From an uncultured Lachnospiraceae bacterium (GTDB lineage Bacteria; Bacillota; Clostridia; Lachnospirales; Lachnospiraceae): 64,000 nucleotides of DNA. The position numbers were made by a program, and so were the translations under genes. The stretch lies in the NCBI GenBank assembly GCA_902778245.1, contig CACYXH010000010.1, positions 18,082 to 82,081 of the forward strand. The letters run 5' to 3'. Under the pieces are notes generated by a model that ran no database searches, was not told where the DNA came from, and saw only the letters and a list, made by a program, of their open reading frames with translations. Below are positions 43,608-63,858 of the stretch, one piece after another (the first letter of the stretch is position 1; each line of letters starts with the position of its first letter).

Positions 43608-46181
43608 CTATTTCCATGATGTATAAATTAATTGCCTTTTATCAAATGCTTCCTCTCCGCCTTCCATAATATCTACAATTTGCTTATGTGTAGATTTCAG
43701 GTCAATATTCCCTTGCGATATATCAATCGTTGTATCTTGATACTCAACCACAAAAATTCTTTCAGCATCACCCAGAACTGGAATGTTAGCATTGTGTGTA
43801 GCAAAAATAAATTGTATATCTTGTTTCTTTTTCGCAATTGCTGTAATTACTTCATCGTAAATAATTTTATTATCCAAATCATCTTCTGGCTGATCTATAA
43901 GAATAATATCATTATCAGACTGCATGAGTATAAACAATATAAGAGCTGACGCACGCTGCCCTATTGAATGGTGTCGTAATAATTTGTCATGATAATATAT
44001 TTCAACATTATTGGAAACCTGATTCTTCAGAAGATCCGCATACTGATCTTGCAATTTTTTATCAAGCTTTGTATATTCTGAGGATGAAATAATTTCCTTG
44101 ATTTTCATACCATCACATAATATCCAGTCTTCTATAAGCTCCACATAATCTCTAAACGTGTCACATAAGTATTGATATTTTATTTCAGAAATACCTGACC
44201 CCCTAAAATCAGTCTTCATCTGTGATTTAAAATTATCTCTGTCACCTTTAAAATCAATAGTGATTTTTAATTCATTTTGTGATTCATTAATTTTCTGAAT
44301 TTCAAGTTTATATGCATTGAATTGTTCTAATAATATATCATTTCTTTCACGCATTGCTTTCTTGAATGCACTTTCTATTTGTTTTTTGGATTTAGCTCGT
44401 TCATCTAGTTGCTTTAAATTCTCTTTATATTTTTCCAGCTCTTCTGTCATTTTGACAAATCCATCAATATCTAACGTATCATCTTTGATTTCTCTTTTTA
44501 TTTCAGCAAATTCATCAGATAATCCATCTATTTTTTTCGATAACATTTCCACTACATCTGCAAATTCTAACGAATTACTTTCTATCTGCGTGACGGCCTC
44601 TCCAATTTTTAAAATTTCATTTCCAATTGCACTTAAAATATCACTTGCCTTCTTTATAATATCAGAATTATAAACACTTTCCACGCCCTGCAATCCTAAA
44701 GTCACATCTTTATTATTATCATAACACTTTTTTAATTCTCGTACTGCTGAATCAATTCGTCCTTTTACAGAATCCAACTTTGCTTTATCTGTTGTGTATC
44801 CAGTTTGTTTTTTTAATTTTTCTGCAACGCCTTTTTCCTTGTAAATAGACATTTTATGCTCAACTTCAGATTTTTTAATTTTGTATTCCTCAATCTGCTC
44901 TGGAATTTTATTCGCATCTAATAATTGAGAAACCGATGTTGTCAACTCCTTCACACAAGATGTTATTTCTGCACTTTTCCCTATTTTTCCACCAACCAAT
45001 TTCTCAAGAAGACCATTTTCATGATCAGCACTATTTGATAGATCTTTTTGCCCAAAATATTGAATTCCATCAAACAAGCTTGACGGTTGTATATTTAAGT
45101 CAAGTCCATTTTCATCTATAACATTACTCTGTTCTCCGTATATACGACTAACAATATAATGTTTGCCATGTTTATCAACAACAGATAATGTTGCTTTTCC
45201 TCCTGAGCCAAAAATATTTTTTATCAGTGATTCTTTATATTCTTTATCTGTTTGCAACGGTAAATCAAATATATAACGAATTGCTTCAAGCACAGACGAC
45301 TTTCCACTTCCGCGAATTCCAATTAACGAATTAAGCTCTGATGAAAATCTAATAGTCTGACCATCAAATTTTCCGCCTTGAAAACTTATAGATTCAATAT
45401 ACCCATGTCTTCTTTCCGGTAATGATTCAGCAACTCTACTTTTATAGTCCTGTAATGCAAATTTAATCGCCGCATATGAATATTCTCCGATTTTTAAATA
45501 TGTTTGTTTATCGCCTTTTCCAATATCTTTCAATGATTTAGGATCCGATCCCTCTATAAGAGCTGGAATATATCCAAAACAACGATTAAATTTATTTATA
45601 TTATCCCTTGTCCTCGATTTTTGTATTCCTAAAACTCGTTTTCTAAACGGAGCAAGCCCTGAGAGCGATTCTAAAAGACCGCCTCCACATTCGTTAAACA
45701 AACCACTGCCTTGATCAACATGGGCAAATATTACAAAATAATCTTTTCCATACTCCTCCAGTTTTTCCAATGTGCTTTTTAAATCATAACAACATTTTGT
45801 ATTTCTATTTTCAGGATTAGATATTGTTGCAAATGCGGCTGTTAAAAATGTTTGAATGTGATTATTGCCATTTTCTAACCATTCATCAGGATTAAAAACT
45901 ATAAGAGTATGTATACCATTAGCTCCCTCTTTAACAGTCAATTCTACACCAGGTAATATAAATATTTTTTCTTTGCTTGCTGCCCTTTTTAAGGCTTTAT
46001 ATTCATCTTTGTCAAATTTATTATGATTGGTAATAACTCCAACAGAAATATTAGCTTGTTTCAATGCCGAAATATATGATTTCACAAAATCATTTGGTTC
46101 ACCACTATATGAAAATTCTTTATCTTTTTGTGTATGCAGATGAAAATCTGCCCTTAAAAATTCAAGCCCTGATTCAAACAT
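43608..46181 (-). CDS. TrlF-like protein: PHP domain fused to SMC/RecF-type ATPase
   Basis: 857 aa. The N-terminal PHP phosphoesterase domain has metal-ligand motifs DFHLHT (12-17), TNHNKFD (51-57), PGVELTV (77-83), H91, AHVDQGSG (153-160) and EGSD (210-213). The ATPase starts with GIRGSGKSS (288-296), followed by a long coiled-coil region (about 400-640) and ends with SIGQRASA, IILIDQPEDDLDN and FIFATHNANIP. This is the TrlF-type architecture, suspected of nucleic-acid cleavage or phosphate removal controlled by ATP. It is last in the BREX operon, 16 bases after brxL, in noticeably lower-G+C DNA, so it was probably added later. Probable accessory effector. Confidence 0.85.
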   Translation of the reverse strand: MFESGLEFLRADFHLHTQKDKEFSYSGEPNDFVKSYISALKQANISVGVITNHNKFDKDEYKALKRAASKEKIFILPGVELTVKEGANGIHTLIVFNPDEWLENGNNHIQTFLTAAFATISNPENRNTKCCYDLKSTLEKLEEYGKDYFVIFAHVDQGSGLFNECGGGLLESLSGLAPFRKRVLGIQKSRTRDNINKFNRCFGYIPALIEGSDPKSLKDIGKGDKQTYLKIGEYSYAAIKFALQDYKSRVAESLPERRHGYIESISFQGGKFDGQTIRFSSELNSLIGIRGSGKSSVLEAIRYIFDLPLQTDKEYKESLIKNIFGSGGKATLSVVDKHGKHYIVSRIYGEQSNVIDENGLDLNIQPSSLFDGIQYFGQKDLSNSADHENGLLEKLVGGKIGKSAEITSCVKELTTSVSQLLDANKIPEQIEEYKIKKSEVEHKMSIYKEKGVAEKLKKQTGYTTDKAKLDSVKGRIDSAVRELKKCYDNNKDVTLGLQGVESVYNSDIIKKASDILSAIGNEILKIGEAVTQIESNSLEFADVVEMLSKKIDGLSDEFAEIKREIKDDTLDIDGFVKMTEELEKYKENLKQLDERAKSKKQIESAFKKAMRERNDILLEQFNAYKLEIQKINESQNELKITIDFKGDRDNFKSQMKTDFRGSGISEIKYQYLCDTFRDYVELIEDWILCDGMKIKEIISSSEYTKLDKKLQDQYADLLKNQVSNNVEIYYHDKLLRHHSIGQRASALILFILMQSDNDIILIDQPEDDLDNKIIYDEVITAIAKKKQDIQFIFATHNANIPVLGDAERIFVVEYQDTTIDISQGNIDLKSTHKQIVDIMEGGEEAFDKRQLIYTSWK

Positions 46182-46197
46182 TTTATCCCTCCTTATA

Positions 46198-48336
46198 TTA
46201 CTCTACCCCCAACGCCTTAAACACTGCATCTTCCGCACTCTGATACGGAATCAGCTGAAATGCACTCATCAGATCAGCCGGAACGCTTGCAAAATCAACA
46301 AATGAGGTACTTGGAATCAGCACCTTCTTTGCGCCGCTATCCAGACACACCTGAAGTGTATTGGCAAGTTCATCCACCTTTATCATTGTGCCACTAATTG
46401 TTATATCTCCCAACACTGCCAAGTTGCTGACAACAGGCTTTCCAAGGGCAATCGAACAAAGTGCAATCAATGTTGGAAGTGCCAGTTTATCTGTCATGCC
46501 GATACCCTGCAAATCCTGATAATTGATGATGTAATCCTTAGTTGAGGTGCTGATAGATCCACTGATCCGATTGCCGTTGGCTTTCAGATAATTAAATGCC
46601 GTGTTCACCGCTTCCTTGCATTTAGAATCACTGCCTAAGCCAGTCCGTTCAATTTTGCCATTGCCTGGAAGCATCTGACTTTCCAAACGGAATACACCAA
46701 TCATGCCACTTTTTCCTCTGGATACAGTATAAACCTGTCCCGGATTGCACATTCCGTCCGGTATCAGTTTACCGCCGCCTTGCTCCGGTACAGAAACATA
46801 ATGTTCTGACATATCCTCCAAGTCGATATAGGAGAAATTCACATCATAAAACTCCATACCGCCCAGCTTTTTCAGCTGTTCTTTTACACGGCGACGCATT
46901 TCCAATGCAATCTGAATAATTTCTTCCAGTTCTTCCTTTGTAAACTCACCATTTGGATACATCAACTTCAGATAACCGTCTATCATACGCCGAACCGCAA
47001 TTGTATCACGCTGATTCAGATTTCTCCCCAAGCGGAAGTAGTGGTCAAGTGCATCTCCATACTGCTCCTTACGGAGCTCTCGGATGAACTCTGCCAAATA
47101 GTCACTGATAAAACCGTAATCATCGGTAAAATGCTCCGGTCTGAACTTCGGTATTTCCCATCCTGGAAGATAACAATGCATACGATCAAGAAATGCTGTA
47201 TCTGTTCCCATTTCCTGTGGAAAAGGTGCAAACAGACTGGATGTTTTCAACAGCACATCCACACTCTGATTGATGTTTCCAACAAACACCATCGACGCAG
47301 TAGCAGCCTTTTCTTCTTTGCCACGGGCGAAAGAGCCGGATGCCATGTAATCCTTCATAATCTGGATGCCATCTTTATCCTTAAACTTGATACCTGCCAC
47401 TTCATCAAAAGCAACGCAGTCCCACAAGCCGACCAATCCGACCGTTTTGCGTCCCATATTGTAAAACAGATTTGCAACTGTCGTCTGCCCACCGGAAATC
47501 AAAATACTGTTTGGTGAAATCTCTTTGTAAAGATGAGATTTACCGGTGCTTCTCGGTCCAAGCTCACAAAGATTAAAGTTATTCTCAACTAATGGAATCA
47601 TACGGGTCAAGAGCAACCATTTCTCACGGTATGTAAATTCATCCGGTTCCATTCCGATAGAACGAAGAAGGATATCCAACCATTCATCTTTCGTAAAAGC
47701 TTTTCGTCCCTGCTTCAGTTCATCAATATCAATGTGCGGCATCTGGATCGGTGTCAGCTTACGGATACTGATTGGTGAAATATCTTTCTGCTTTTTCTGT
47801 TTGGAACGAAGTGGATTTCCATCAATGTCCTCAATACCAAAATTATTGTCGCCTTCAACCTCATAATCCAGCTGAACAATACACCAGACACCGCCACAGA
47901 GCAGGCGATCAAATTTTTCTGGATATTCATCGGCAATCGGTACATTACCAACGCCCAAATTAGAAAACTCTGCAAAAAAGCAGTCCTTTTTCATATCCAG
48001 TCGAACAGTCACCATATCAATGATTGTGTGACTGCCTTTTTTACGCAGCTGAGACAGAATTTTCTGTGATTCATCCGGGCGTACAAAGTTATCAGCAAGA
48101 ATACGCTTCACATTCTGTACGCCTTTCTCTATAACAGTCTCATCATCTGAACTGCAATACTGTCCCAACAAGAACTCAAGAACATACACTGGGACATTCG
48201 CCCCTTCTTTGATTTTCTTTGTCAGGTCTTTCCGAACAATCTTACCGTCAAAGTTCTGACGGAGCTTGTTCTTTATTTCTTTGCGGGTACTTTCACCCTC
48301 TCTAAATTGCTCCACCTTTCTCTCCTCCTGCGGCAT
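46198..48336 (-). CDS. brxL: BREX Lon-like AAA+ protein BrxL
   Basis: 712 aa. BrxL is the type 1 BREX AAA+ factor that binds DNA as a barrel and is needed for phage exclusion. Walker A is ELGPRSTGKSH (around 260-268), Walker B CVAFDEVAG (307-315). The Lon-protease-like C-terminus (about 560-712) ends with TISGTMIKVDELANTLQ and AKKVLIPSTS. The expected serine and lysine of the Lon dyad are not at the aligned positions (around GMTDKLALPTLIAL and DELANTLQ), so proteolysis is doubtful. Its ATG overlaps the pglZ stop (TAATG). Confidence 0.95.
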   Translation of the reverse strand: MPQEERKVEQFREGESTRKEIKNKLRQNFDGKIVRKDLTKKIKEGANVPVYVLEFLLGQYCSSDDETVIEKGVQNVKRILADNFVRPDESQKILSQLRKKGSHTIIDMVTVRLDMKKDCFFAEFSNLGVGNVPIADEYPEKFDRLLCGGVWCIVQLDYEVEGDNNFGIEDIDGNPLRSKQKKQKDISPISIRKLTPIQMPHIDIDELKQGRKAFTKDEWLDILLRSIGMEPDEFTYREKWLLLTRMIPLVENNFNLCELGPRSTGKSHLYKEISPNSILISGGQTTVANLFYNMGRKTVGLVGLWDCVAFDEVAGIKFKDKDGIQIMKDYMASGSFARGKEEKAATASMVFVGNINQSVDVLLKTSSLFAPFPQEMGTDTAFLDRMHCYLPGWEIPKFRPEHFTDDYGFISDYLAEFIRELRKEQYGDALDHYFRLGRNLNQRDTIAVRRMIDGYLKLMYPNGEFTKEELEEIIQIALEMRRRVKEQLKKLGGMEFYDVNFSYIDLEDMSEHYVSVPEQGGGKLIPDGMCNPGQVYTVSRGKSGMIGVFRLESQMLPGNGKIERTGLGSDSKCKEAVNTAFNYLKANGNRISGSISTSTKDYIINYQDLQGIGMTDKLALPTLIALCSIALGKPVVSNLAVLGDITISGTMIKVDELANTLQVCLDSGAKKVLIPSTSFVDFASVPADLMSAFQLIPYQSAEDAVFKALGVE

Positions 48337-50978
48337 TAACTAAAGAAATCAAACTCATCCACCGCAAAGGCGATGTCAATCTGGAATGACTCCCGCTGTG
48401 GCATCTGTAATCCCTGTTCATCTGCAATTACCAGATAATACGTTGCTGTATTGCTGTATTTTAGAGATTTTAGATTAAACTGACAACGGAAAGTTCTTTC
48501 TGCACCGTTATCGCTGGTCTTATCTGCAATAATCTTTTGAATATCACTAATCTGCTTGCCGTCCTCATCTGTAAAGTAAACCTGATAGGTTTCAGCTTCA
48601 CGGTTTGTACTGACTGCATCTTTTTGATAGAAGTTCAATGAAAAAATCATATTGCTGATTTTACGGTTTGCGGACAGTAACTTGACCGTTACCGGCTTGG
48701 TATCATATTTCTGCTTATTTCGCTTATATTCCATAGAATCGTTGCGGAGATAATGATACTCAATCACCGGAACAACCATTTCCTGCAAACTGATACCACC
48801 ATGCACAAAATTCATTCCGCCACCATTCATTTTGATACGAATACTTTCTCTCGGTGCAAATCCATCAAATTCTGTATTTCCTCCCAGGAATTTTACAGGC
48901 ATCAAGTAATCTGGTTGCACACCTTTCTGCATAATTGCATATCTTCTGCCATATTCTACACACCGCTTGATGCTTTCTTTTTTTGTAATGTCAGAGTTTG
49001 TTACATCCACATCAAAAAAACCTCTTTTATCTACTTTGTCCTCTTCCTTCAAAGGACTGTATGTATAAAGAAATCCATGATCTGCCGTAATTAGAATATT
49101 CGTTCCACCAAATTCATTTACAATGATACGCACAAGATTCTTCAATTCTGAAATCGCCTTGTCACACGCAGCAAAAACAGCAGTATCCGAAGTGTGGCTG
49201 GCTTCATCAATGGTATCGTGGTAAATATAGACCACATCCATACCTTTTACCAAAGCACTTCTTTCCGCTCGTTTCATAGCAATGATGTCATTATACTTTA
49301 AGGCCACGCTTGCCGAATCTTCTGTTTTCAGAACCTTGTCCCTATAAGTACTAGCCGTAGACTGTCCATCTGCCAAAACCGTCAAAATATCGTTCCGAAC
49401 CTCTACTGTCAATTCTTTGTGCGGCAACAAAGCTGCCATACCAAACTTTGTAGTAGAAGGGAAAATGCTCTGCATACTGCTGATAGAAACCTTACTTTGC
49501 GTTTCTCGCTGAAGCTGATCTGCCATCGTAGCCGCCACTTCATAACGCATGGCATCTGAGATAATTACAAATACTTTCGTATCCGAGGTTTGGATACGTG
49601 AACGGTAAAAATCCTCCTGTTGCGGTACTTCCAGAACTTTACCGTAAATTTCCAGTTCATCCGCACATACATCCGACCAGTTGTTGCCCAACTCACCTAA
49701 GAACCAGTGCGTATAAAGTCCTTCCACCTTATCAACAACATGCTTGAACAAATCATCCAGCAGAATATTGGAAGTCTCCAAACTCTTTTGAAAACTAAGA
49801 TGGAACAAACGGTAATAAGTGTCCATCTGATAGTAACTCTCTGTATATTCTTTCCAGATACTTTTCGCTTCTGCGGTATGGAATCCGGCTGAATGTTCCT
49901 TAAAGAAACTTTGCATATTCGCCACTTGTAAGATACCATCGTAAAAATTTTCAAATGGCTCATACCATACACAAGTTCTCCGTTTTTCAACGGTATTCGT
50001 AATGGTATCCACATCAATAATATGGTCACTAATCTCTGTCATTAGCTTTGTCAGAATTACTTCGTTAATACACGGAAAGCACTCTGTTCCTGCCAAATCT
50101 TCTACTGTCAGCTTTTCAAAACGCTGATACAGACGAGCTTCATCCTCAACATAACGTGCCACATCATATAATTGCGGAATGTTATCACTATGAAGCCATT
50201 CAGAAATGAAATCATAGCAATATGCCTGATGGGGTATGGAAATAAAACTGTCCAGTCCGGCAAGATACTCCTGCCGCATGGTACGGGTCGCTGCAGTTAA
50301 AAGCAGATGAATTGCCAACTGCCCAAGATCTGGTTCTTCCTCCACAAATCCACATCCCTGACGAACCATCGCCCAAAAAGCTGCGTCTGCATGATATTTT
50401 ACAAAATCCTGATAAACCGTATTATTATTCAAATCCAGTCCCGCCTGGAACACACTACGGAGAATCATATTAGGCTGTGCACCTTTCAATCCACAGATTG
50501 CCGCCATGACAGCCATGTGTAACTGTGCCGGTGTTTCCGGAACTTTATTCTGTGTGCTGACTTTCAAACGACGGTCTTTCGCATTGAAGTAAGCACGATA
50601 ATTTTTAACCTGTTTCCTCATTGCAGGATTTGATATAAGTCCCATCTCATCCATCCAGATAGAAATCAGATCTGCCCGAAACTCTTCACTGTAAAGCTCT
50701 ACATCTAGAAGCCAGTTATCATCCGGACGGTTATAGACACACGGGCTGTAAACCAGATAATTTGTGGTCAAATCATCTATTGAAAGTAATTTTTTTACAG
50801 AAAACGCATTATTTCCAGTCAGTGCAATCACCTTTGCATTTTCCAAAACCACTTCATCCAGTTTATCCTCAAATTCCTTATCTTCATCATACCAGAAAAT
50901 GATACGACGCTGATAAAACTCAGGCAGAGGTGCAGCAAACCTGCGATTTAAATCTTGAATTATTTTATCTGTATCCAT
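48336..50978 (-). CDS. pglZ: BREX type 1 alkaline-phosphatase-fold protein PglZ
   Basis: 880 aa. The PglZ domain of the alkaline phosphatase superfamily is shown by VFVIISDAMRYEVAATMADQ (nucleophile-region motif), VYIYHDTIDEASHTSD and ILITADHGFLYTY (metal-binding D-H), in the middle third. The N-terminal third is alpha-helical and specific to BREX type 1 (type A). The C-terminal part is beta-rich. Proposed to be a nuclease or phosphodiesterase in the exclusion complex, and needed for methylation. Start follows TAGGAGG. 9 bases after the AlbA_2 gene. Confidence 0.95.
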   Translation of the reverse strand: MDTDKIIQDLNRRFAAPLPEFYQRRIIFWYDEDKEFEDKLDEVVLENAKVIALTGNNAFSVKKLLSIDDLTTNYLVYSPCVYNRPDDNWLLDVELYSEEFRADLISIWMDEMGLISNPAMRKQVKNYRAYFNAKDRRLKVSTQNKVPETPAQLHMAVMAAICGLKGAQPNMILRSVFQAGLDLNNNTVYQDFVKYHADAAFWAMVRQGCGFVEEEPDLGQLAIHLLLTAATRTMRQEYLAGLDSFISIPHQAYCYDFISEWLHSDNIPQLYDVARYVEDEARLYQRFEKLTVEDLAGTECFPCINEVILTKLMTEISDHIIDVDTITNTVEKRRTCVWYEPFENFYDGILQVANMQSFFKEHSAGFHTAEAKSIWKEYTESYYQMDTYYRLFHLSFQKSLETSNILLDDLFKHVVDKVEGLYTHWFLGELGNNWSDVCADELEIYGKVLEVPQQEDFYRSRIQTSDTKVFVIISDAMRYEVAATMADQLQRETQSKVSISSMQSIFPSTTKFGMAALLPHKELTVEVRNDILTVLADGQSTASTYRDKVLKTEDSASVALKYNDIIAMKRAERSALVKGMDVVYIYHDTIDEASHTSDTAVFAACDKAISELKNLVRIIVNEFGGTNILITADHGFLYTYSPLKEEDKVDKRGFFDVDVTNSDITKKESIKRCVEYGRRYAIMQKGVQPDYLMPVKFLGGNTEFDGFAPRESIRIKMNGGGMNFVHGGISLQEMVVPVIEYHYLRNDSMEYKRNKQKYDTKPVTVKLLSANRKISNMIFSLNFYQKDAVSTNREAETYQVYFTDEDGKQISDIQKIIADKTSDNGAERTFRCQFNLKSLKYSNTATYYLVIADEQGLQMPQRESFQIDIAFAVDEFDFFS

Positions 50979-50987
50979 GCTGTCCTC

Positions 50988-52460
50988 CTACCTTATAATT
51001 TTCCAATTTGCTTTTCGTTTTGTTCCGCCCTGTACCAATCTACCTTTTTCCTGTAAAGAAGCGAACATTCGAGAAATCGTTCTTTTCGATATACCCATTT
51101 TTTCTGCATAATAGGCCTGTGTTGCAGACGGATTCTTCTCTATAATCTGCAACAATTTTTCTATCTGCATCTGTTCCTTATTAAGTGGCACTTCAGCGCC
51201 ATTAGTGCCATCATCAGCGCCACAATTAACGCCATTAGCGCCATTTTTAGTGTCATTGGCGTTAATTATGGCGCTATTGGTATCAACCTGACCTCGATAA
51301 ATATTGATACGCAAATCAACTTCGCCACCAATAAACTCTGGCTCTTGCAATCCGGCAGCTTTTACTTTGTCTATAATTCTCGGAATGCCGCTTCCCCAAT
51401 GCTCGATCAGATTCATGTAAGCAAACGCATGAGCAAGAGCTTCATTTCTGATTTTAGAATAGCCTTCTTTCATACGCTCCATCGTTTGTCCCATTGGCAA
51501 CTTTCCTGGAGAAGTAATTTCCAATCGGTTGTCATATACCGCTACCTGTATCGTACCATGATCCAGATAACTACGATGTACCATAGCATTGATAATCAAC
51601 TCACGAATGGCATCCGGTGGAATCTCATAAACATCCTGGCGATAAATTCCCACAATAGTAGCACCCAGATGAATATTTCTTAAGACAAACTGAAATGCTT
51701 CGTCTATCTGTTTCCAAAGCGGACCGCTATATTCTCTACGGTCAACAAAAACTGCTTTTGTTGTCCCTTTGAACACACCACATTGCGTTGCAACATGAAG
51801 TCCTCCGTTTCCAGTCAAAATAGCAAAAGCATTAGACGGATAATCTTTTCCATCACGCTCAATTAAAATTCCCCAGGAACGCAACTGCTGTCTTCCCACA
51901 TCTTTAATCGATGCTTTCTGTTCCTCTGTACGGGCATTTCTGACAGCCTGCTCTTTCATAGCTTTGCAAAGGGCATCAATATCTTCCTCTGTAACATTTA
52001 ACCCAGTACATAAAGCCTGATCATAGTAGCGGTTACTGCCCTCAAACAACAACTCCTTTACCATATACTCATCGGCAAGGCGGGTAGTTCCGGCAACACG
52101 GACATATACACCACCATCTCTACCAAGAGCTTTGATATAATATGGACGTTGTCTGCCCTCAGAAACCTCTACCACGATGACAGTCTTACCATCAACCGTC
52201 TGTAAAGTAATATCCGGGATGATTGCCGGTTCACAGCTGTCTGATACGGCATTGGCAATGGCATCCATTTTTTTGAACACATCTTCCTTGTCAAAGCCAA
52301 CAACCTTTCTGGTTTTATCAGCAATTCCGAAAATAATTTTTCCTCCGGTTCCATTTGCAAAGGCAACCACAGACTTCATATATTTGATGCTTTTCTCTGG
52401 CAGGGTCTCTTTGAACTCCACATTCTTCGATTCTCCTGCAAGAATTTCTTCTATGGTCAT
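50988..52460 (-). CDS. AlbA_2/Schlafen-like ATP-binding protein with C-terminal HTH
   Basis: 490 aa. N-terminal AlbA_2 domain (residues 1-125, NVEFKETLPEKSIKYMKSVV then GTGGKIIFGI), HATPase_c_4-type region (around 285-385, PPDAIRELIINAMVHRSY and HWGSGIPRIIDKVKAAGL), an Asn/Gly/Ala-rich linker near 400-430, and a winged helix at the end (ATQAYYAEKMGISKRTISRM). This is the form often called putative DNA-binding or transcriptional regulator. It lies between the 263-aa protein and pglZ, where some BREX loci have extra genes. Could be a regulator or a tRNA/RNA-targeting effector; undecided. Confidence 0.85.
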   Translation of the reverse strand: MTIEEILAGESKNVEFKETLPEKSIKYMKSVVAFANGTGGKIIFGIADKTRKVVGFDKEDVFKKMDAIANAVSDSCEPAIIPDITLQTVDGKTVIVVEVSEGRQRPYYIKALGRDGGVYVRVAGTTRLADEYMVKELLFEGSNRYYDQALCTGLNVTEEDIDALCKAMKEQAVRNARTEEQKASIKDVGRQQLRSWGILIERDGKDYPSNAFAILTGNGGLHVATQCGVFKGTTKAVFVDRREYSGPLWKQIDEAFQFVLRNIHLGATIVGIYRQDVYEIPPDAIRELIINAMVHRSYLDHGTIQVAVYDNRLEITSPGKLPMGQTMERMKEGYSKIRNEALAHAFAYMNLIEHWGSGIPRIIDKVKAAGLQEPEFIGGEVDLRINIYRGQVDTNSAIINANDTKNGANGVNCGADDGTNGAEVPLNKEQMQIEKLLQIIEKNPSATQAYYAEKMGISKRTISRMFASLQEKGRLVQGGTKRKANWKIIR

Positions 52461-56700: not shown

Positions 56701-57255
56701 CTGAATGACACTGCCTTCACGGAGCAGATTGTCCGGCAGAAGAAGCTCTGTGTAGTCGGCAATCTTTTGGAACATTCCCGGCAAAATTTTATTCAGAGCG
56801 TTGCACTGCACAGTCAGTAGGTATTTATACAGTTCTTCGGTCTTTTCTGCATCTTTCAGCTCATAGACTTTTTCCATATTCAATCCATCTAAATCCAGAT
56901 GAATGACTTCGGAGATAATCTGCGGCTTAAAGCTGTTTTCCTCGTCCGTGAACACACGCACATGAGAAGGAAGATAGCTGTTTACTTCCATGAATCGCAG
57001 AGCAGAGAAGCGGTTGAACCATGTGTAGGCAACCTCCTCCATGACCTGCTTATATCCTTTATCGTTAATCTCGTCAATGAGAGCCTGACGCTGTTTCTTT
57101 TCATCGGCTGTGAGGACTTTGCCGCCAATGCTGTCCGCATTGGCATCCTCAATATTGTCCTCTGTGATACCGTATTCCACACCTTTCAATGAAACACGGG
57201 CGATCAGCTCTGTTCTTGCCCAGACAGCAAACTTTTTTATCGCATTTTTATCCAT
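53749..57255 (-). CDS. pglX: BREX type 1 adenine-specific DNA methyltransferase PglX
   Basis: 1168 aa. Methylates N6-adenine in a non-palindromic host motif and marks self DNA; also required for defence. SAM-binding motif DPCSGSGHILA (327-337) and catalytic NPPY (500-503), in gamma/Type IIL-like order. Residues about 610-855 (54690-55430) form the probable target-recognition part and lie in much lower G+C DNA than the rest (16 G/C of 60 at 54721-54780, 31 of 60 at 54601-54660), suggesting recombination of specificity. C-terminal coiled coil near 1095-1150. Start follows GGAGG. The SEFIR gene ends 3 bases upstream. Confidence 0.97.
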   Translation of the reverse strand: MDKNAIKKFAVWARTELIARVSLKGVEYGITEDNIEDANADSIGGKVLTADEKKQRQALIDEINDKGYKQVMEEVAYTWFNRFSALRFMEVNSYLPSHVRVFTDEENSFKPQIISEVIHLDLDGLNMEKVYELKDAEKTEELYKYLLTVQCNALNKILPGMFQKIADYTELLLPDNLLREGSVIQQMIELIPEDDWKDAVQIIGWLYQYYNSEKKDDVFAALKKNVKITKENIPAATQLFTPDWIVHYMVENSLGRLWLEGHPDAKDQFLPTEEEQSAYAAGNRDTEDTKWHYYLEEAEQEPEVQAQLAEIRKEYAALTPDQLKVIDPCSGSGHILAYMFDVLMKIYESYGYTTREAVASIVENNLYGLDIDDRAAQLAYFAVMMKARQYDRRFFSRGIQPHVYAIVESNHVDEFAVDYFCNGDAKLTAAMDTIISELHDAKEYGSILNVTPQDWSALYDRFAEITEDINMSRETALRELLPLVQMAEALAQKYDVVVTNPPYMGASNMNPKLNEFIKNNHADYKSDFFSAFVIHASQMTKQSGYCGFFTPYVWMFIQSYEKMRNYLYNQATIETLIQFEYSAFEEATVPVCTFAFQNRNVQKKGCYLRLVDFRGGMEVQRQKTLEAIKNHDCGFYYEQNTDNFSIIPGSPVAYWASTKMLEAFQTGNKFAGETKKGVLTGDNNTYLRLWHEVNIGKLGFELYSHAEMIDSSMKWFPVTSGGEKRRWYGNFDTIVNLENDGADIKANVKNYRLRDSQYYMLEAITWTEISSSIFTCRYVPKGILFGNGGPVSFFFNKRLMYHLALLNSKVAMEILGYLAPTINYGPEQINRIPIVYSNEDEVNQLTKWNILLSQTDWDSFETSWDFQRHPLLRNVSTISEAFNQWQAECDDRFNHLKSNEEELNRIFIDIYGLQDELTPEVEDKDVTVRKADLGRDIRSFISYAVGCMFGRYSLDVDGLTYAGGEWDDSKYTSFAADKDNIIPICDDEYFEDDIVGLFVEFVKTVYGADTLDENLKFIADALGGKGQPKDVIRNYFLNDFYKDHCKIYQKRPIYWLFDSGKKNGFKALIYMHRYQPDTIARIRTDYVHEQQARYRTAIADLEQRIANASTGERVKLNKRLTTLQAQDAEIRTYEEKIHHLADQMISIDLDDGVKKNYAIFQEVLAKIK

Positions 57256-57258
57256 ATA

Positions 57259-58368
57259 TCATTCCTCCGGCTCCATAAGAACTGCTTTGCAGGGATTCTC
57301 CTCCGTTATCTTTGTTCCAGCTGTAACCGTTATTTCTTTCATTGGAATTGCGTACTCAAAATCAAATTGCATATTCTCTATTACAGCTCCCATTGATGGA
57401 TTCTTTAATCCGACAGGAACTAAATAATATTTTCCTGTCTTGTTATACATATCTAAAAACTGATCTCTATTACCTGATCCGTTATTTTCATCCATCCACT
57501 GGTAACGTGAAACCGTTGCCAAAAGTAGTTGTTGCATTTCTATTCCGCACTTATTAGCTCGACTAATGCTTTCATCAATATTTGCGCCTATATGCAGAAA
57601 ATATCCTTTTCCATAATTTCTGTCATACGATTCATATACCCAACATGACTTAGGAAACGGTGGAACAATATAATCAACCCTCAAAAAAGTATCTGCGAAT
57701 GCCATATCTTTGTATTTTTTCTTCCACTCTTTGAAAATTTCTTTACCCACTGAGTAATTTGTAAAAAACAAGCCTATGGCAGGTGCATCTCCACCCCAAA
57801 GATATACTGTTCCTCTCCACTTTGCAGCATTCCACTTTTCAAGGTTAATTGGTGAAGAAAAGAACATTGTTTTTCGTTCCTTTTCTGGCAGTGGCTTCAA
57901 TTCTCCCAATGGCGGTTTTTTACTATTCGTAACACCTCTGAAACGCCAATATAGCCTGTCATACTGCTTTTCATCCAAAAGATTATAGTATGTGTATGGT
58001 TTCAACGGTGTAGGTATATACTGTTGATCAGCATCATCAAAAAATGCCGCAATAAATTTATTTGTTTCTGCCGCTGAATCATATAACATTTGATAGACAA
58101 TGTTAGCCTCCCATACAACGCCCTTCCCCTTTTTCTCGGAATAGAGTTTTTGATGATATGTTTCTTCACATAAAACAAGAACAAACTCTGACTCCATGAT
58201 TTGATGCTCCATCCACCTCGGCCATCCTTCAGGAGGTGCTTCTTCATATTGGTCTATCATCGCATCAATTCCTTCTGAACGTAGTCTATTTGCCAATTCC
58301 AACACTTTATCTTCATATGCTTGATTTTTATGGGCATATGAAATAAACACTTTTGGGTTATTTTCCAT
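57259..58368 (-). CDS. SEFIR-domain protein with uncharacterised C-terminal domain
   Basis: 369 aa. The N-terminal 150 residues are a SEFIR (TIR-like) domain: KVFISYAHKNQAYEDKVLEL, GIDAMIDQYEEAPPEGWPRW, SEFVLVLCEETYHQ. Some bacterial TIR-superfamily domains degrade NAD+ or make signal nucleotides; the acidic residue pattern (EGWPRWMEHQI) is seen but catalysis is unproven. Residues 175-369 contain a beta-rich region (RGTVYLWGGDAPAIGLFFTN, GYFLHIGANIDESI) with no family I recognise. It sits between the membrane protein and pglX, 18 and 3 bases away. A sensor or effector inserted in BREX is likely; function open. Confidence 0.82.
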   Translation of the reverse strand: MENNPKVFISYAHKNQAYEDKVLELANRLRSEGIDAMIDQYEEAPPEGWPRWMEHQIMESEFVLVLCEETYHQKLYSEKKGKGVVWEANIVYQMLYDSAAETNKFIAAFFDDADQQYIPTPLKPYTYYNLLDEKQYDRLYWRFRGVTNSKKPPLGELKPLPEKERKTMFFSSPINLEKWNAAKWRGTVYLWGGDAPAIGLFFTNYSVGKEIFKEWKKKYKDMAFADTFLRVDYIVPPFPKSCWVYESYDRNYGKGYFLHIGANIDESISRANKCGIEMQQLLLATVSRYQWMDENNGSGNRDQFLDMYNKTGKYYLVPVGLKNPSMGAVIENMQFDFEYAIPMKEITVTAGTKITEENPCKAVLMEPEE

Positions 58369-58386
58369 ATCTGTCTCCTATTCTTT

Positions 58387-58866
58387 TTAATTGATTCCAA
58401 TACTTCTAATATTTGACCTTATCGCAAACAATGGAACTGGTAGTATTCCTTTTGCTTTTTTCTTTTCAATACTAATTGCAGTTACTTGACATTCTTCAAA
58501 ATGTTCCCTCTGACAATGCCATTCCAATGCGTCTGCTTCCTGTTCGGATAACGTATATACGACATTATGGAACGGCAATATAATTCTATCGCTTTCAGGC
58601 ATTTGACAATCTACCAATATTTTTTTCTTATAACAAATTACGAAGTTTTCTAAAACAAAAGGCTTCTCGCCGACATTAAAGATTTCAATTCCATGTTCAG
58701 AAAAACTTTCTTTCACACGATATTCTTTCTCTGTTAACTCATTTTCTGGAGTTGCTACCATTTGGAAACATAGCTTCGGTCGTCCTCGAAAAATAGTAGT
58801 CAGTTCATTTAACAACCAGCCAATAATAACTCCTAAAATGCCAATAGTTGCACTAATCAGTTCCAT
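58387..58866 (-). CDS. Small membrane-anchored protein, unknown
   Basis: 159 aa. One N-terminal membrane helix (residues 3-20, LISATIGILGVIIGWLLNEL) without a cleavage site, then a cytoplasmic domain, predicted beta-rich (KLCFQMVATPEN, HGIEIFNVGEKPFVLENFVI, DCQMPESDRIILPF). The pattern resembles small anchored beta-sandwich proteins that accompany TIR/SEFIR or other effectors. It lies 19 bases downstream of brxC and 18 upstream of the SEFIR gene. No family recognised; pairing with SEFIR is inference from position. Confidence 0.7.
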   Translation of the reverse strand: MELISATIGILGVIIGWLLNELTTIFRGRPKLCFQMVATPENELTEKEYRVKESFSEHGIEIFNVGEKPFVLENFVICYKKKILVDCQMPESDRIILPFHNVVYTLSEQEADALEWHCQREHFEECQVTAISIEKKKAKGILPVPLFAIRSNIRSIGIN

Positions 58867-58885
58867 TTTCTATTGTTCTCCACCT

Positions 58886-61800
58886 TTAATTCAGCTTGAT
58901 CTCGTCGCAATTCTTCAGCAACTGTTTCAGCTGAGAACGAATCTTCTCTACATAATCATCAATATCCGCATCCGTCTGTAAGGTCTTTGCCTGAAATACA
59001 ACCTGACGGTTATAGGCTCGGACAACCTTTTTCTTTGCAGTTGCTTGCTCTTTTCCTTGCTGTGTCGGCTGTACCTGTGGCTTCGGTGCAGGCGGTTCCA
59101 AAACAGATTCAATATTGCTGACTGTATCATCCTTGTACTGACACATCGGCAGAAACATGGCATCCAAAAGGGCAAGGCTCTTTAATTCTGCGATTTTCTC
59201 CTTGCACTGGCTGAAATACCGATCTGATTTTTCAATTAGATGGGATACCTTAGAATCGCCGTTTGCGGCAGTGTGGGTTGCTTCCATACACTGACGAACC
59301 GTTTCCAGAATCTCAACACGTTTTTCTTCCAACATCTTGTCATGAGCTGTACGAACCGTATCCATCAGCGGATTCAGTTCACGAATCCGGTTATAGTTGA
59401 ACTTACTTCCGGTCTGAACCATGATAATCAAACGAATGGTATTCAGTGCCTTGTGTGCTTCCTCATTTTCTGCGATACAGTCAAGATCATCATGCAGAGA
59501 TTTTTCAAACTGCACTGCCTGGTCGAATACTGTTACCTGGGTTTTGAAGAAGTTTTCAATGCCGTTGCTCATGGCTTCTTTATTGTCGAAAAGAGCATCC
59601 TCTTTTTTCAGCACACGCTCAATCAGGGCAATATTGTCTTTCTTCTGAGAAAGTACATCGTCCATCAAATGAATGGCTTCCTGCACCAATGCACGGTCTG
59701 GGTATTTATGTCCGTCATAACGGGCATCCAGAGAAGTATAGTAATCACGCTGTTCACCAAATTTCTCAGTCACAAAGCGAATCAGCCCATCTTCATCGTC
59801 CGGTACATCCATGATGTCGAAATACTCTCGGAGCATCGCTTTTACATCACGCATCATCGTAGCAGAAATGGTTTTACGCTTGCTGATGGAAGCCTTGCCG
59901 ATCTCACTCTTTTTTCGGAGCATATCTGGCAATTTCGGGTCATCTGGCTGAATGGTATTGCCTGCATACTTGATGGTTACTTTCTGGGAATAAATCAGCT
60001 GTGCCGCAACCGCAGCAATATCAATTTCTTTCCATCCATACGGAATTGCACTATATTTGCTTTGCACGTCTGCCATAGATGTCGGCAGTTTTTTCGCATC
60101 CTGCATTTCCAGATATTCTTCCATAGCGGAAGCAGCATCACGGTTTGGCTCCATGCCCGGAAGTACCGTTACCGCACCTGTCAGAATCGCAATAATATCT
60201 GCATCACTGCCTGCATTATCTGTAATCAGGTCAAGCTTGCTATATACATGAGCAACCAGATATTCAAGAGACTGGTCAATCTTACTCTTGGCATTTCCGG
60301 CTTTGATTTCCAGATGTTCACCGTCTACATAGAACTGTGCCCCCTCGATAGCATTTTGCAATTCGCTCATGGCACTCAGCTCATATTTTCCGGCTTCGTC
60401 CTGCTGGTCACTGATGATTTTCTGCACAGTTTTCGGAAGCTGGCTTACATTTCTCTGCTTTACATACTTGCGAATCTTCATAGCAGATTCCAGAGATTCA
60501 TAGTAAGGCGTATCAGCCAGAACTACGATTGCTTCGTTGCCTTTGGATTCTGCCATCAGACGATAATCCGTTTTTTCAATAGCATCGGTAGCAACGGTCA
60601 GAAAACGCAGACGCATACCGCCTGTTGCCACACCAACAGTAATACCATCTACCATCTGGTCGAAGGCAAAGTCATATTTTCCATAACGGAACTTCTTAGT
60701 TGTGAAAATATCACCGTAAATCATCTGAGCAATACGCTCTACGATAGAAGCGGTATCCACATTTGTATCTCTTATTTCACGCTGAATATCCTGTTCTTCG
60801 TCAGTCAGGAAGTTATAAGTGTCACCAGTTCTGCCGATATAGTTCTGGCTCATCAGACGATCAAGGCATCCTCGGACAGCTTCACGCATGATAATCTTAT
60901 CCACACGAATATCGTCTGCCATAAGAATTACGATATTGTCCAAATTGGAAGGAATATCATCAATATATCGAATCAAGTACAAAAGTTTCAGTACATCTAC
61001 ATCCTGCTGTTCAATGCCGTCCCCGTTGTCAGCAGCTTTCTGGCAACGCTCAATTACACGACGAATCGAACCATCCAGGAAAGTATGTACAGTATCATAA
61101 AAACGGAAGAACGGAACAAGTGCATATTCATCCTTCTCCTGAATTTTCTGTGCAGCTTCCTGGAAACCGGACAGCATGGAACGCTCACCACCAGACAGGT
61201 GCTTACCGGAATTTCCATGTTTCCGGATTTCAGCAAATATCTTCTGCATGATGATAAACTGATACGGCACGAACGGGAAGTTCTCGGTAAATTCCCTTGG
61301 GCCGGAATAACCTTTAATATCCAGAATGGAACCGCTAAAGCTGAACAGGTTACGAAGAACAGAATCATTCTGCTCATAAACAGCTTCCAGATTTTTAGCT
61401 GCTTCTGGTTTCTTTTTCAGAATACGTTTCTGGATGACCTCATCCACAGAGGAAGATGATAAACTCAGTCTTGTCTTAAAACGAGCCTGAATACGGGAGA
61501 ACTCATCGGCACGAACTTTGATGATTTCATCAATGGCTTCCTGTCCGGTGCAGATCACCCAAATCTTTCCTTCACACTCACTTCCGATTTTTTCTGTCAA
61601 AGACTGGAGGTTCAAAAGCATATCGGTGTCTGTGCCGACATACTGACCAACTTCGTCGATCATAAACAGCAGACGGAAGTTCGCTGGTTTAGTATCCACA
61701 TAGGCTTTCATATCTTCCACAAGCTGAGCAATAGATATTTCTGTTGCAGTTTTATCATTGAACCATGCCTTGGCATCGTCCTCACTCATATCTAAAACTT

Positions 61801-62434
61801 CCATTAGTGTCGGGATGATGAACTTGCCATTGAAAGCAAAGGCACGGCGCATTTCAAGCCAGGGCTTGCCTTTCTTTTCTTCAAAGACTCTGCGGAACTC
61901 CTCGGTTTTTCCCTGCTGGTCGATATAACGCTCCATCATGGCAACTTTCAGATTTTCTCCGTAAAATCCCAGATGGTTATAGAACATCTTGGCAAAAACA
62001 CGAAGTACAGCGGTCTTGTCTTTATTGCTGAAGCCTTCAATATCAATGTTGAAAAGAATGGTTTCCGTCTGCCCCTTCGTGGCACGGTCGATCAGCATAA
62101 AAGTTGCCGGGTCATCCTCAAATTTTTTACGGAAACGTTCCACACTGCGAATGCCTTTCACCTCTTTATTTTCCAAAAGATAGGAAAGCATTTTCAAGAA
62201 GTGAGATTTACCACTTCCAAAGAAACCAGAAATCCAAACACCCATATCAGCGGTCGGCTGATCGAAAGCATCACCGTAATAATTGAAGAACGTAATGAAA
62301 TGTTTCTTCAATTCTCTGGTAATGACATATTCATTTAACTCCTGCTCGATTACATCATCAGCAGCCTGATCTACTTTAATTACACCATTGATTTTGCGGT
62401 TAATGTCATCCGCAAACATATCTCGAATCATCAT
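58886..62434 (-). CDS. brxC: BREX system ATPase BrxC
   Basis: 1182 aa, P-loop NTPase of DUF499/PglY type, a core BREX component. Walker A is GFFGSGKSHFLK (70-81), with LLFMIDEVGQYVG near residue 255 as Walker B. The long middle and C-terminal parts are helical and specific to the family. Length is normal (about 1200). Start MMIRDMFADD follows a GGGGG site. brxB ends 13 bases before. BrxC together with PglX, PglZ, BrxA and BrxB forms the complex described for type 1 systems. Confidence 0.97.
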   Translation of the reverse strand: MMIRDMFADDINRKINGVIKVDQAADDVIEQELNEYVITRELKKHFITFFNYYGDAFDQPTADMGVWISGFFGSGKSHFLKMLSYLLENKEVKGIRSVERFRKKFEDDPATFMLIDRATKGQTETILFNIDIEGFSNKDKTAVLRVFAKMFYNHLGFYGENLKVAMMERYIDQQGKTEEFRRVFEEKKGKPWLEMRRAFAFNGKFIIPTLMEVLDMSEDDAKAWFNDKTATEISIAQLVEDMKAYVDTKPANFRLLFMIDEVGQYVGTDTDMLLNLQSLTEKIGSECEGKIWVICTGQEAIDEIIKVRADEFSRIQARFKTRLSLSSSSVDEVIQKRILKKKPEAAKNLEAVYEQNDSVLRNLFSFSGSILDIKGYSGPREFTENFPFVPYQFIIMQKIFAEIRKHGNSGKHLSGGERSMLSGFQEAAQKIQEKDEYALVPFFRFYDTVHTFLDGSIRRVIERCQKAADNGDGIEQQDVDVLKLLYLIRYIDDIPSNLDNIVILMADDIRVDKIIMREAVRGCLDRLMSQNYIGRTGDTYNFLTDEEQDIQREIRDTNVDTASIVERIAQMIYGDIFTTKKFRYGKYDFAFDQMVDGITVGVATGGMRLRFLTVATDAIEKTDYRLMAESKGNEAIVVLADTPYYESLESAMKIRKYVKQRNVSQLPKTVQKIISDQQDEAGKYELSAMSELQNAIEGAQFYVDGEHLEIKAGNAKSKIDQSLEYLVAHVYSKLDLITDNAGSDADIIAILTGAVTVLPGMEPNRDAASAMEEYLEMQDAKKLPTSMADVQSKYSAIPYGWKEIDIAAVAAQLIYSQKVTIKYAGNTIQPDDPKLPDMLRKKSEIGKASISKRKTISATMMRDVKAMLREYFDIMDVPDDEDGLIRFVTEKFGEQRDYYTSLDARYDGHKYPDRALVQEAIHLMDDVLSQKKDNIALIERVLKKEDALFDNKEAMSNGIENFFKTQVTVFDQAVQFEKSLHDDLDCIAENEEAHKALNTIRLIIMVQTGSKFNYNRIRELNPLMDTVRTAHDKMLEEKRVEILETVRQCMEATHTAANGDSKVSHLIEKSDRYFSQCKEKIAELKSLALLDAMFLPMCQYKDDTVSNIESVLEPPAPKPQVQPTQQGKEQATAKKKVVRAYNRQVVFQAKTLQTDADIDDYVEKIRSQLKQLLKNCDEIKLN

Positions 62435-62447
62435 GGCTTTATCCCCC

Positions 62448-63008
62448 TTAATCTATGACATTGAATGCCCGGTAATAATCATTTGGTGTCAGACGATTGA
62501 ACAGTTTTACATGACGACCATCGAACTCACCTGGATACATAACCAAAATCGGAACATCCGAAAAATACGGTTGCAAGGCTTCCAGTAACGTATGGATTCT
62601 CATAAATGGAAACACCTCGCCTACACCTGTCAACATCAGCACATCACCTAGTTCGTGTGGCTCATACTGAATTTTATCAATGAACTCTCCCTTGCCGATT
62701 GCGGAATTCAGCTGTTCCAGAAGATAAGCACTTCCGTCAGCTTCTTCCATATCTGGAATTGCATCTGTGATGTCCATATCATCGCAGATAGAGAGAAATG
62801 TTTTATATAAATTACAAACAATCAAATGGCAATCTAAGGACTGATCAGTTTCCAGCTGATTCACAAAATGGCGAACAACCATTTCTTTCTCCGGCTCATA
62901 GCAGAAGATTCTGATATTCACCTCATTGCTGAGTCCTTTGCCTTCCAGGAACTCCGGTTCCTGAATCAATGCCCGAACTTTGTCCAGGCGCTCTTTTATT
63001 TCACTCAT
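62448..63008 (-). CDS. brxB: BREX protein BrxB (DUF1788)
   Basis: 186 aa, DUF1788. EIKERLDKVRALIQEPEFLE at the N-terminus, VNIRIFCYEPEKEMVVRHFV, LTGVGEVFPFMRIHTLLEAL and VLMYPGEFDGRHVKLFNRL at the end match the family. The start MSEIKERL follows GGAGGTAACCCG; the longer frame starts inside brxA. BrxB is an essential BREX factor of unclear activity. Confidence 0.96.
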   Translation of the reverse strand: MSEIKERLDKVRALIQEPEFLEGKGLSNEVNIRIFCYEPEKEMVVRHFVNQLETDQSLDCHLIVCNLYKTFLSICDDMDITDAIPDMEEADGSAYLLEQLNSAIGKGEFIDKIQYEPHELGDVLMLTGVGEVFPFMRIHTLLEALQPYFSDVPILVMYPGEFDGRHVKLFNRLTPNDYYRAFNVID

Positions 63009-63019
63009 CGGGTTACCTC

Positions 63020-63625
63020 CTACACAAAGCAATTAAACGCCGGCAGTATTGCCATATCGCCATTGCTTCTGATGGCATTTTCCAAAACAGGATGCAGCCA
63101 TACTGGATTCAAATGATCTGCCTTGAGATTATCGAGATATTCTGTTTCGACAAGCACTCTGGCAATAATCTGTTTTAACTTTGTTATCGTACTATCGCTC
63201 CAGGAAGCTACGGTATCATTTTGTTCCTGTAAACGCATAAAAAATGTATTCAAATCTATCTTACCAAAAGACGTGTCCCTTAATCTGTACTTCTCGCCAA
63301 TGACGGTCAGCATAAATTCCCAGACCAGTCGGCTTTGCTTCATTAACGCATACAGACAAATCTGTTTTGCTACATCTGTTGGTTGTGACGCAATCGCAGA
63401 AACCAGAGAATCATCTTCCAGAGCATGAAGCCGTTTGATGCAGGCTTTCGCCATGCGTGTAATAGATTTTTCCGTTGGATACTGGAAAAGATTCTGCTCT
63501 ACAATTTCTTTAACAATCGCATCATTTGAATTTCCTTCTGCCATTAGCTTTGCGGTAGAGCGCATCTCGTAGAAAAGGAACGGCTCTCTGGTCAAAGACG
63601 CAATATAAGGATAAGAATGATCCAT
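63020..63625 (-). CDS. brxA: BREX protein BrxA (DUF1819)
   Basis: 201 aa, DUF1819, a small DNA-binding winged-helix protein of BREX. PYIASLTREPFLFYEMRSTA opens it, QLLQYPTEKS-like NLFQYPTEKSITRMAKACIK follows, and YLDNLKADHLNPVWLHPVLE is near the end. First core gene of the operon, 14 bases after the HTH gene, with GGAGG before the ATG. Confidence 0.96.
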   Translation of the reverse strand: MDHSYPYIASLTREPFLFYEMRSTAKLMAEGNSNDAIVKEIVEQNLFQYPTEKSITRMAKACIKRLHALEDDSLVSAIASQPTDVAKQICLYALMKQSRLVWEFMLTVIGEKYRLRDTSFGKIDLNTFFMRLQEQNDTVASWSDSTITKLKQIIARVLVETEYLDNLKADHLNPVWLHPVLENAIRSNGDMAILPAFNCFV

Positions 63626-63639
63626 GCTACCGTACCTCC

Positions 63640-63858
63640 TTACTGTTCCTCTTTTTTATCAGGAACAAATTCCATGATATCTCCCACATCACAATTCAAA
63701 GCAGAACATATCTTTGACAGAATCTCTGTACTTACATTTTCATCTTTTGATAATCGAGACATCGTTGTTGTACTAACTCCTGTCATTGCACGCAAATCTT
63801 TCTTCATCATTTCTTTATCAATTAACAATTTCCACAATTTCTTGTAACTAACTGCCAT
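63640..63858 (-). CDS. Small XRE/HTH_26-type regulator at head of BREX operon
   Basis: 72-aa single-domain HTH: YKKLWKLLIDKEMMKKDLRA, MTGVSTTTMSRLSKDENVST, EILSKICSALNCDVGDIMEF, the YozG/HTH_26 pattern. It is unlike the WYL-domain BrxR regulators of other BREX loci. It likely controls the operon, with the palindromes at 63914-64000 as candidate operators. Start preceded by TGAGGTG. Confidence 0.9.
   Translation of the reverse strand: MAVSYKKLWKLLIDKEMMKKDLRAMTGVSTTTMSRLSKDENVSTEILSKICSALNCDVGDIMEFVPDKKEEQ

Follow-up and report, generated by a model that had tools for sequence, protein, structure and literature searches.

Whether the extra genes of a bacteriophage exclusion (BREX) operon are constant parts of that system or independent defence modules lodged within it is the question raised by a stretch of 64,000 nucleotides from an uncultured Lachnospiraceae bacterium (assembly GCA_902778245.1, contig CACYXH010000010.1, positions 18,082 to 82,081), the whole of which is called the window here. 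A minus-strand operon of 13 genes occupies the last 20 kb of the window, within the limits that an earlier sequence-only reading had given it, and contains a type 1 BREX core together with six accessory genes. Comparison with related loci makes it likely that independent defence cassettes can be taken up at four junctions of this complete type 1 BREX operon, namely after brxC, pglX, pglZ, and brxL. The genes are listed below from the head of the operon; slots are named by their flanking genes, and loci, genomes, and contigs of the window's own genome are denoted by L, G, and C numbers, respectively.

63640..63858, minus strand: HTH_26 (Cro/C1-type) regulator of 72 amino acids, operon head, 14 bases before brxA (PF13443, 8.3e-23)
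63020..63625, minus strand: brxA (PF08849, 1.7e-62)
62448..63032, minus strand: brxB, TTG start as listed (PF08747, 3.2e-35)
58886..62434, minus strand: brxC (PDLC02471, 1268 bits; BrxC Pfam domains; Walker A)
58387..58866, minus strand: memb, 159 amino acids, one N-terminal hydrophobic segment (Kyte-Doolittle), slot brxC/pglX
57259..58368, minus strand: SEFIR protein, slot brxC/pglX (PF08357, 9.4e-20; PADLOC bSEFIR, PDLC03957, 1.3e-59)
53749..57255, minus strand: pglX, methyltransferase (NF033452, 1424 bits, cut-off 500; NPPY)
53276..53737, minus strand: M14A, CxxC zinc-ribbon protein, slot pglX/pglZ (PDC-M14A, 1.5e-58; CxxC at residues 23, 47, and 142)
52498..53289, minus strand: M14B, 263 amino acids, slot pglX/pglZ (PDC-M14B, 5.3e-120; N-domain about 1-150, C-module about 150-263)
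50988..52460, minus strand: Schlafen protein with AlbA_2, HATPase_c_4, and helix-turn-helix parts, slot pglX/pglZ (PF04326, 9.4e-26; PF13749, 1.7e-25)
48336..50978, minus strand: pglZ (TIGR02687, 598 bits, cut-off 270)
46198..48336, minus strand: brxL (TIGR02653, 1034 bits, cut-off 628; Walker A)
43608..46181, minus strand: TrlF-family ATPase, after brxL (NF045780, 544 bits, curated cut-off 350; DFHLHT and Walker A)

All six genes of the type 1 core (brxA, brxB, brxC, pglX, pglZ, and brxL) are present in one cluster, with profile matches that exceed the curated cut-offs where these are available, which places the system in type 1 BREX; and the six accessory genes are confirmed at brxC/pglX, at pglX/pglZ, and after brxL, both as the sequence-only reading had claimed. 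Core DNA is 87-97% identical among relatives that carry unlike cassettes, and the identity breaks at or near gene ends. For example, the window and L018 are 95-97% identical over 18.8 kb on both sides of the pglX/pglZ slot, where L018 carries a gene for a 300-amino-acid protein in the place of M14A and M14B (52485-53742 in the window). Another example is L017, which is 94-95% identical to the window outside pglX, with breaks at 58886 (the end of brxC) and 57256 (the start of pglX); here a gene for 206 amino acids replaces memb and SEFIR, and GajA replaces TrlF after brxL. The brxC/pglX junction is free of genes in L012, L021, L049, and L050, and holds a single SEFIR protein of 481 amino acids in L013. 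Since near-identical cores hold different inserts at the same junctions, the inserts appear to be exchangeable cassettes and not core parts of BREX. Such cores with unlike cassettes constitute a natural experiment on modularity and on the sites of insertion.

The core itself contains one exchanged stretch. Residues 505-852 of PglX, approximately (about 54700-55742 of the window), which we take to be its target recognition part, are only 28-62% identical among eight loci in which the flanks are 82-97% identical, and reach 99% between the window and L018 only; this central region has been exchanged among relatives. A link between the region and cassette content was considered and discarded, no association being seen in the eight loci. 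The window and L018 share the PglX region and differ at the M14 slot, and L012, L017, and L018 share the 300-amino-acid cassette while the regions of L012 and L017 differ, so that the central region and the cassettes vary independently in this set.

Slots were counted from matches to PglZ type A (TIGR02687), which exceed the cut-off at 47 places distributed over 43 of the 397 genomes surveyed in the same family. Forty of these places were taken (L008-L047), two more lie in the own genome (the window, which was used, and contig C74, which was not counted), and five were left out of the survey (G383, G001, G342, G129, and G083). Four further loci (L048-L051) were added from the M14B search described below, making 45 sources, from which L051 (no pglZ in range) and L044 (a duplicate of L048) were dropped to leave 43 loci; some of these, e.g., L019 and L047, give few or no junctions, and denominators vary with contig ends or with the 12-kb reach. 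A junction was scored as filled when a gap of at least 300 bases held a same-strand open reading frame (ORF) of at least 100 amino acids, and an ORF of this minimum length on the same strand counted as a post-brxL insert when it started between -30 and +150 bases from the end of brxL. Filled junctions amount to 0/32 for brxA/brxB, 0/33 for brxB/brxC, 9/35 for brxC/pglX, 27/39 for pglX/pglZ, and 7/33 for pglZ/brxL, or to 0/30, 0/31, 9/33, 25/37, and 7/32, respectively, when the M14B-query loci L048-L050 are excluded and L044 is kept. The junctions of brxA-brxB-brxC thus differ from the others (0/65 vs 43/107; Fisher p 3.7e-11, kinship between loci ignored), their gaps are short at every locus, with a maximum of 91 bases, and this block was closed in all loci examined. 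An insert follows brxL in 17 of 28 loci, a count that is an upper limit because one such gene, that of L030 with CHAP, lectin, and LRR domains, is no defence gene. The sequence-only reading had placed extra genes at three junctions only, which holds for this locus, although relatives also fill pglZ/brxL; given those seven filled cases, there are four insertion slots, the fourth being pglZ/brxL, which is empty in the window.

Regarding the content of the slots, Schlafen-like proteins recur in 16 loci, in 15 of them at pglX/pglZ, and the 300-amino-acid protein (304 in L015) occupies pglX/pglZ in L012, L015, L017, and L018 (9126-10028). Other insert families in relatives include GajA, AriA-like and HEC-01A ATPases, SpbK-type TIR, PDC-S02, GmrSD_N, and an AAA_13 ATPase. 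Only a minority of the inserts was scanned, ten proteins by PADLOC and ten by Pfam; three and six of these, respectively, matched no family, among them the 300-amino-acid protein, for which neither database gave a match. In the window, SEFIR belongs to bSEFIR, its residues 1-307 aligning with positions 35-343 of the 412 of PDLC03957, and M14A and M14B form a PDC-M14 pair (M14AB), as adjacent genes that overlap by 14 bases and match the PADLOC models over almost their full length. TrlF is assigned to its family by the score listed above, and its N-terminus is presumably PHP-like. The best 19-residue Kyte-Doolittle mean of memb is 2.03, and this protein has no match in Pfam, PADLOC, or NCBIfam.

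Independent occurrence outside BREX has been found for M14AB and, by one locus, for memb, which together with the defence-family matches of several inserts places the operon among the embedded-defence ('guilt by embedding') loci. Matches to memb were obtained in 7 of 397 genomes of the family, one of them (G211) being a weak fragment with a stop. In five, memb lies at brxC/pglX (the own genome, G152, G186, G217, and G302, where BREX is a remnant that lacks PglZ), the loci that have it in the slot of the window being L018, L010, L046, and L116; SEFIR accompanies it in three of the five (own, G152, and G302) and is absent in two. In G252 (L117), by contrast, memb comes after a gene that was recognized by eye as hsdS-like and that belongs to a type I operon together with hsdR- and hsdM-like genes. 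No memb was found in viral contigs or plasmids. A separate transfer of SEFIR in G302, where its identity exceeds that of brxC, was considered and dropped, full brxC being 84% and brxB 89% identical. Outside BREX, SEFIR was met once (L100), and the Schlafen family once, as an AlbA_2 protein beside M14AB (L103).

The contexts of M14AB are more varied. Profile searches with M14B, which drew genomes regardless of BREX, gave matches in 6 of 398 genomes of the phylum, 8 of 391 of the class, and 14 of 397 of the family, the own genome being included every time. Only BREX-borne copies went into the first profile (A1), which may therefore be biased towards them. Once own-genome repeats, the broken fragments G852 and G300, and the C-terminal-only matches G047, G225, G339, and own C20 were removed, 21 intact pairs were left, the window included. 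Labels for the neighbours came from a BLAST comparison with 18 reference proteins and, for ten proteins, from Pfam. Methylase systems contain or adjoin 14 of the 21 pairs (13 of 20 if the window is set aside), and 11 pairs are placed immediately after a methylase or specificity gene, although two of the 11 are remnants that have their DNA in common. Seven contexts are BREX (own, G186, G072, G894, where the pair lies between brxC and pglX, the decayed G250, G1067, and G604) and five are type I restriction-modification (R-M; G813, G965, G103, G888, and G705). The order is hsdM-hsdS-M14A-M14B-hsdR in G813 and G965; in G103 (L104), hsdM-like and hsdS-like genes (named by eye) are followed by a gene for 646 amino acids, M14A, an M14B with a TIR domain, and an hsdR-like gene; in G888, hsdM, hsdS, M14A, and M14B-TIR precede the contig end; and in G705 a Methylase_S protein lies upstream, with no hsdR found within 3.7 kb downstream. 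In addition, M14AB lies in a C5-methylase cluster in G1152, and M14A follows a helicase in a methylase and helicase cluster of G455, which is presumably of the DUF1156 kind. Besides BREX, M14AB is therefore housed by type I R-M operons and by two further methylase clusters.

The remaining seven pairs have as neighbours a permease-like gene (G685), a DUF5697 gene (G159), bSEFIR (G110), a reverse transcriptase (G152), and an AlbA_2 protein (G131), while G695 is a short contig and the neighbours in G345 were assigned no identity. Around them, comparison with the 18 reference proteins gave no methylase label, and no [NDS]PP[YFW] or C5-type motif occurs in ORFs of at least 200 amino acids within 6.5 kb, the same check being positive in 4/4 methylase loci tried. 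The case of G604 was first considered a type I R-M insertion, which was rejected; its upstream HsdM fragment shares the last 18 residues with the PglX remnant of G1067, and the two share 1,364 bases at 99.8%, M14AB included, so G604 is probably a BREX-derived remnant. Outside the tally stand, besides a plasmid copy mentioned below, L049 and L050 (BREX), L067, which has the same hsd proteins as L079, and L068 (4556-5798), where a lone M14AB sits among replication-type genes of a 126-kb phage-like contig. In L100 (7205-9577) a bSEFIR gene lies about 140 bases before M14AB outside BREX, two families that also share the operon of the window. No M14B was found in the phage record collection.

M14B itself consists of an N-domain and an exchangeable C-terminal unit. 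In G888, G103, G345, and G131 the N-domain (query 3-150, E 6.4e-30 to 4.4e-33) is followed by a TIR domain, identified by Pfam in L104 (PF13676, 1.9e-10), the only one of the four so scanned; the other three C-terminal parts are 55-69% identical to that of L104, and a TIR motif bearing a glutamate, which we take to be catalytic, is present in 4/4. The C-module, in which helices come after a GGQVN-like strand pair according to the alignment, is in turn joined to other N-termini in a 473-amino-acid protein of the own genome (2.1e-14), in L105 (8.7e-17), and in L106 (4.8e-16), and the PADLOC PDC-M14B match in L066 covers the C-terminal part only (2.8e-16). In L106 (5721-9361) the C-module protein, whose start is presumably DUF4062-like, adjoins a P-loop ATPase, recognized by eye, that begins with a similar motif. 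Proteins with the C-module only have no methylase neighbour in 4/4 places (L064, L066, L105, and L106), against 14/21 M14AB pairs with a methylase system (Fisher p 0.026, with a small control). Compared with the PADLOC PDC-M14 models, the present results add TIR-bearing variants, the C-module on other proteins, and contexts that comprise BREX, type I R-M, C5-methylase, DUF1156-like, stand-alone, and phage-like. The system PDC-M14 is reportedly owed to Payne and colleagues in 2024. No nuclease domain was found in M14B by Pfam, NCBIfam, and PADLOC scans, and its hydropathy maximum in the window (1.41, near the end) is too low for a confident call of a membrane segment. The C-module as a TRADD-N or effector-associated domain was rejected, such families being absent from the weak Pfam matches (10 families, E<=5) of ten M14B proteins. 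The similar motifs of the two neighbours in L106 bring to mind effector-associated domains, whose homotypic adaptor logic is described in the part of PMC8195603 consulted, by analogy only, with no such family matched. The C-terminal unit of M14B in the window might be an adaptor-like or membrane-active module, with no enzyme that can be named.

The sequence-only reading had also taken the inserts for nested defence modules, and this has gained support from the differing inserts on near-identical cores, the closed brxA-brxB-brxC block, and the several matches to defence families; the comparison that it had proposed, extended over 43 loci, indicates that the same junctions carry exchangeable cassettes, and the opposite outcome, genes that belong constantly to BREX and never occur independently, does not fit M14AB and memb. 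The presence of backup effectors inside BREX operons, as a layered defence, is already published (Rakesh and Krishnan, 2026; PMC12839542), and the window, like the BREX loci described there, has extra effectors within the operon. In the main text of that article a term search for SEFIR, TrlF, and PHP gave no mention, and neither M14AB nor memb was encountered in the parts of it that were covered, which left its supplements outside; relative to those parts, the present analysis adds the slot counts and the exchange of cassettes on near-identical cores. A full-text literature search naming PDC-M14, and another combining BREX, zinc ribbon, TIR domain, and HsdR, returned no paper, preprints and most subscription papers being outside the scope of both.

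How the cassettes might work together can be proposed as follows. It is established for type 1 BREX that this system acts first; it would constitute the first line, PglX marking self through methylation of a non-palindromic site of 6 bp and the other core proteins blocking unmarked phage DNA. SEFIR (presumably acting by depletion of nicotinamide adenine dinucleotide), the Schlafen protein (as a ribonuclease), and TrlF are predicted to be encoded on the same transcript and to serve as semi-autonomous backup effectors. More tentatively, M14A and the N-domain of M14B might watch the resident modification machinery or a phage product that blocks it, and failure of that machinery might release the C-terminal unit of M14B, as happens with PrrC in type IC R-M. 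The gene prrC likewise lies between hsdS and hsdR. PrrC of EcoprrI, an effector embedded in a type IC R-M system, fires when the enzyme is inhibited, according to the part of PMC12707154 consulted. If the proposal holds, the parallel extends to L079 and L081, where M14AB lies directly between hsdS and hsdR, and to L104, where the 646-amino-acid gene also intervenes. Unlike PrrC, M14B has no significant match to a PrrC-type family in Pfam or NCBIfam, and PADLOC gives only PDC-M14B, so it is not filed as a PrrC/RloC member. Two-gene cassettes embedded in type I R-M operons are also known from TgvAB (PMC11411939) and from DarTG2, which lies between hsdS and hsdR (PMC12255303); as far as these sources were consulted, they resemble M14AB in arrangement and differ in protein families, and embedding is reportedly described also by Payne et al. 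(2024), whom both cite. The principle is therefore already known, and the newer part appears to be the placement of M14AB across systems together with the swap of its effector.

On account of its position in methylase systems and of the PrrC parallel, we infer that M14AB is a portable backup effector and perhaps a PrrC-like guard. The idea is testable, that of a plug-in effector common to BREX and classical R-M whose effector end is exchanged much as one tool takes different heads; phage anti-restriction proteins would be expected to act as triggers if M14AB does guard the modification machinery. The sequence-only reading had suggested that the inserts might respond to a phage that disables BREX; the place of M14AB behind a methylase or specificity gene in several systems would fit this, and its stand-alone copies argue against a strict reliance on such systems. 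The broader proposal, that M14AB is a general guard of DNA-methylation immunity whose sensor pair of M14A and the M14B N-domain, set in unrelated systems and mostly straight behind the methylase or specificity gene, fires an exchangeable C-terminal effector on inhibition, is doubtful, and its probability was lowered slightly because 11 of the pairs, not all 14, lie directly behind a methylase or specificity gene. If true, the guards of BREX and of type I R-M would be interchangeable and come from a common pool. Several results weigh against a guard: 3 of the 14 pairs in methylase systems (G894, G455, and G103) are not directly behind such a gene, 7 of 21 have no methylase nearby, and M14AB stands alone on a Lysinibacillus plasmid and on the phage-like contig L068, both outside the tally; moreover, the AlphaFold2 model of M14B, with a mean predicted local distance difference test (pLDDT) of 76.5, has no match among PDB structures at E<=0.001 (a profile search of solved structures gave weak matches only, the best at E 0.022), and that of M14A (pLDDT 44.9) is useless.

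The pairs without a methylase and the solitary copies on plasmid and phage-like contig are what would be expected if each cassette were autonomous and sensed phage unaided, BREX being only a well-expressed landing place, in effect a defence island within an operon. This is a reasonable possibility, if short of probable; the breaks at gene ends fit exchange through conserved flanks, and tgvAB, embedded in type I R-M, protects alone, at a level 10- to 100-fold below the whole cluster against several phages, according to the part of PMC11411939 consulted. However, autonomy alone leaves unexplained why 11 of the 21 pairs lie directly behind a gene for a methylase or a specificity subunit (in BREX, type I R-M, and the C5-methylase cluster), and why memb follows an hsdS-like gene in its one locus. 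It is very unlikely that the inserts are subunits tuning the specificity or activity of BREX, for example through zinc ribbons of M14A that bind PglX or DNA: tight spacing (-14 to +37 bases) and the position of M14A directly behind pglX in the window and relatives would agree with this, but junctions without a counted insert are common (26/35 for brxC/pglX and 12/39 for pglX/pglZ), M14AB is also found without BREX, and the SEFIR, TIR, GajA, Schlafen, and GmrSD-type inserts resemble effectors. Least credible is a neutral accumulation in which inserts are selected against in brxA-brxB-brxC, tolerated elsewhere, and chance in content, since the uniformly short gaps of that block, the six of ten Pfam-scanned inserts without a family, and the L030 gene are compatible with it but the return of the same families to the same slots (Schlafen-like proteins in 15 of 16 loci and the 300-amino-acid protein in four) and the several defence-family matches speak against it.

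With the reading of the inserts as independent defence cassettes, some details of the operon remain to be given. Its 12 intergenic spacings range from -14 to +37 bases, and promoter-like sites (59 in 44100-64000, vs 55.5 in shuffles, standard deviation 8.5) and terminator-like sites (15 vs 13.1, standard deviation 3.2) show no excess, for which reason a single transcript is plausible. The true start of brxB may be an in-frame ATG at 63008 instead of the TTG. BrxL contains no match to [DG]x[PS]SAG, which we take to be the classic Lon serine motif, and the NPPY, Walker A, and CxxC motifs listed above are assumed to have their usual functional meaning.

A second, distant BREX fragment is present in the own genome on contig C74 (L004 18096-20000, and L005), with pglX and pglZ 43 and 28% identical, respectively; its pglX/pglZ junction is empty, and the contig contains nothing that matches BrxL. 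To the left of the operon in the window, the span 37755-43392 contains a ClpB-like gene, a Tn916-type integrase (40618-41859), and a divergent helix-turn-helix regulator (42823-43392), on account of which the operon may be carried on an integrated element with these genes as its edge. On the other side, where the window ends with the contig, a repeat-like stretch at about 63901-64000 was considered as an array of clustered regularly interspaced short palindromic repeats and ruled out, no direct repeats being detected. The same 100 bases (63901-64000) recur with 99% identity at an end of own-genome contig C83, and for both reasons this stretch, which immediately precedes the operon, is more likely to be the end of an insertion sequence.

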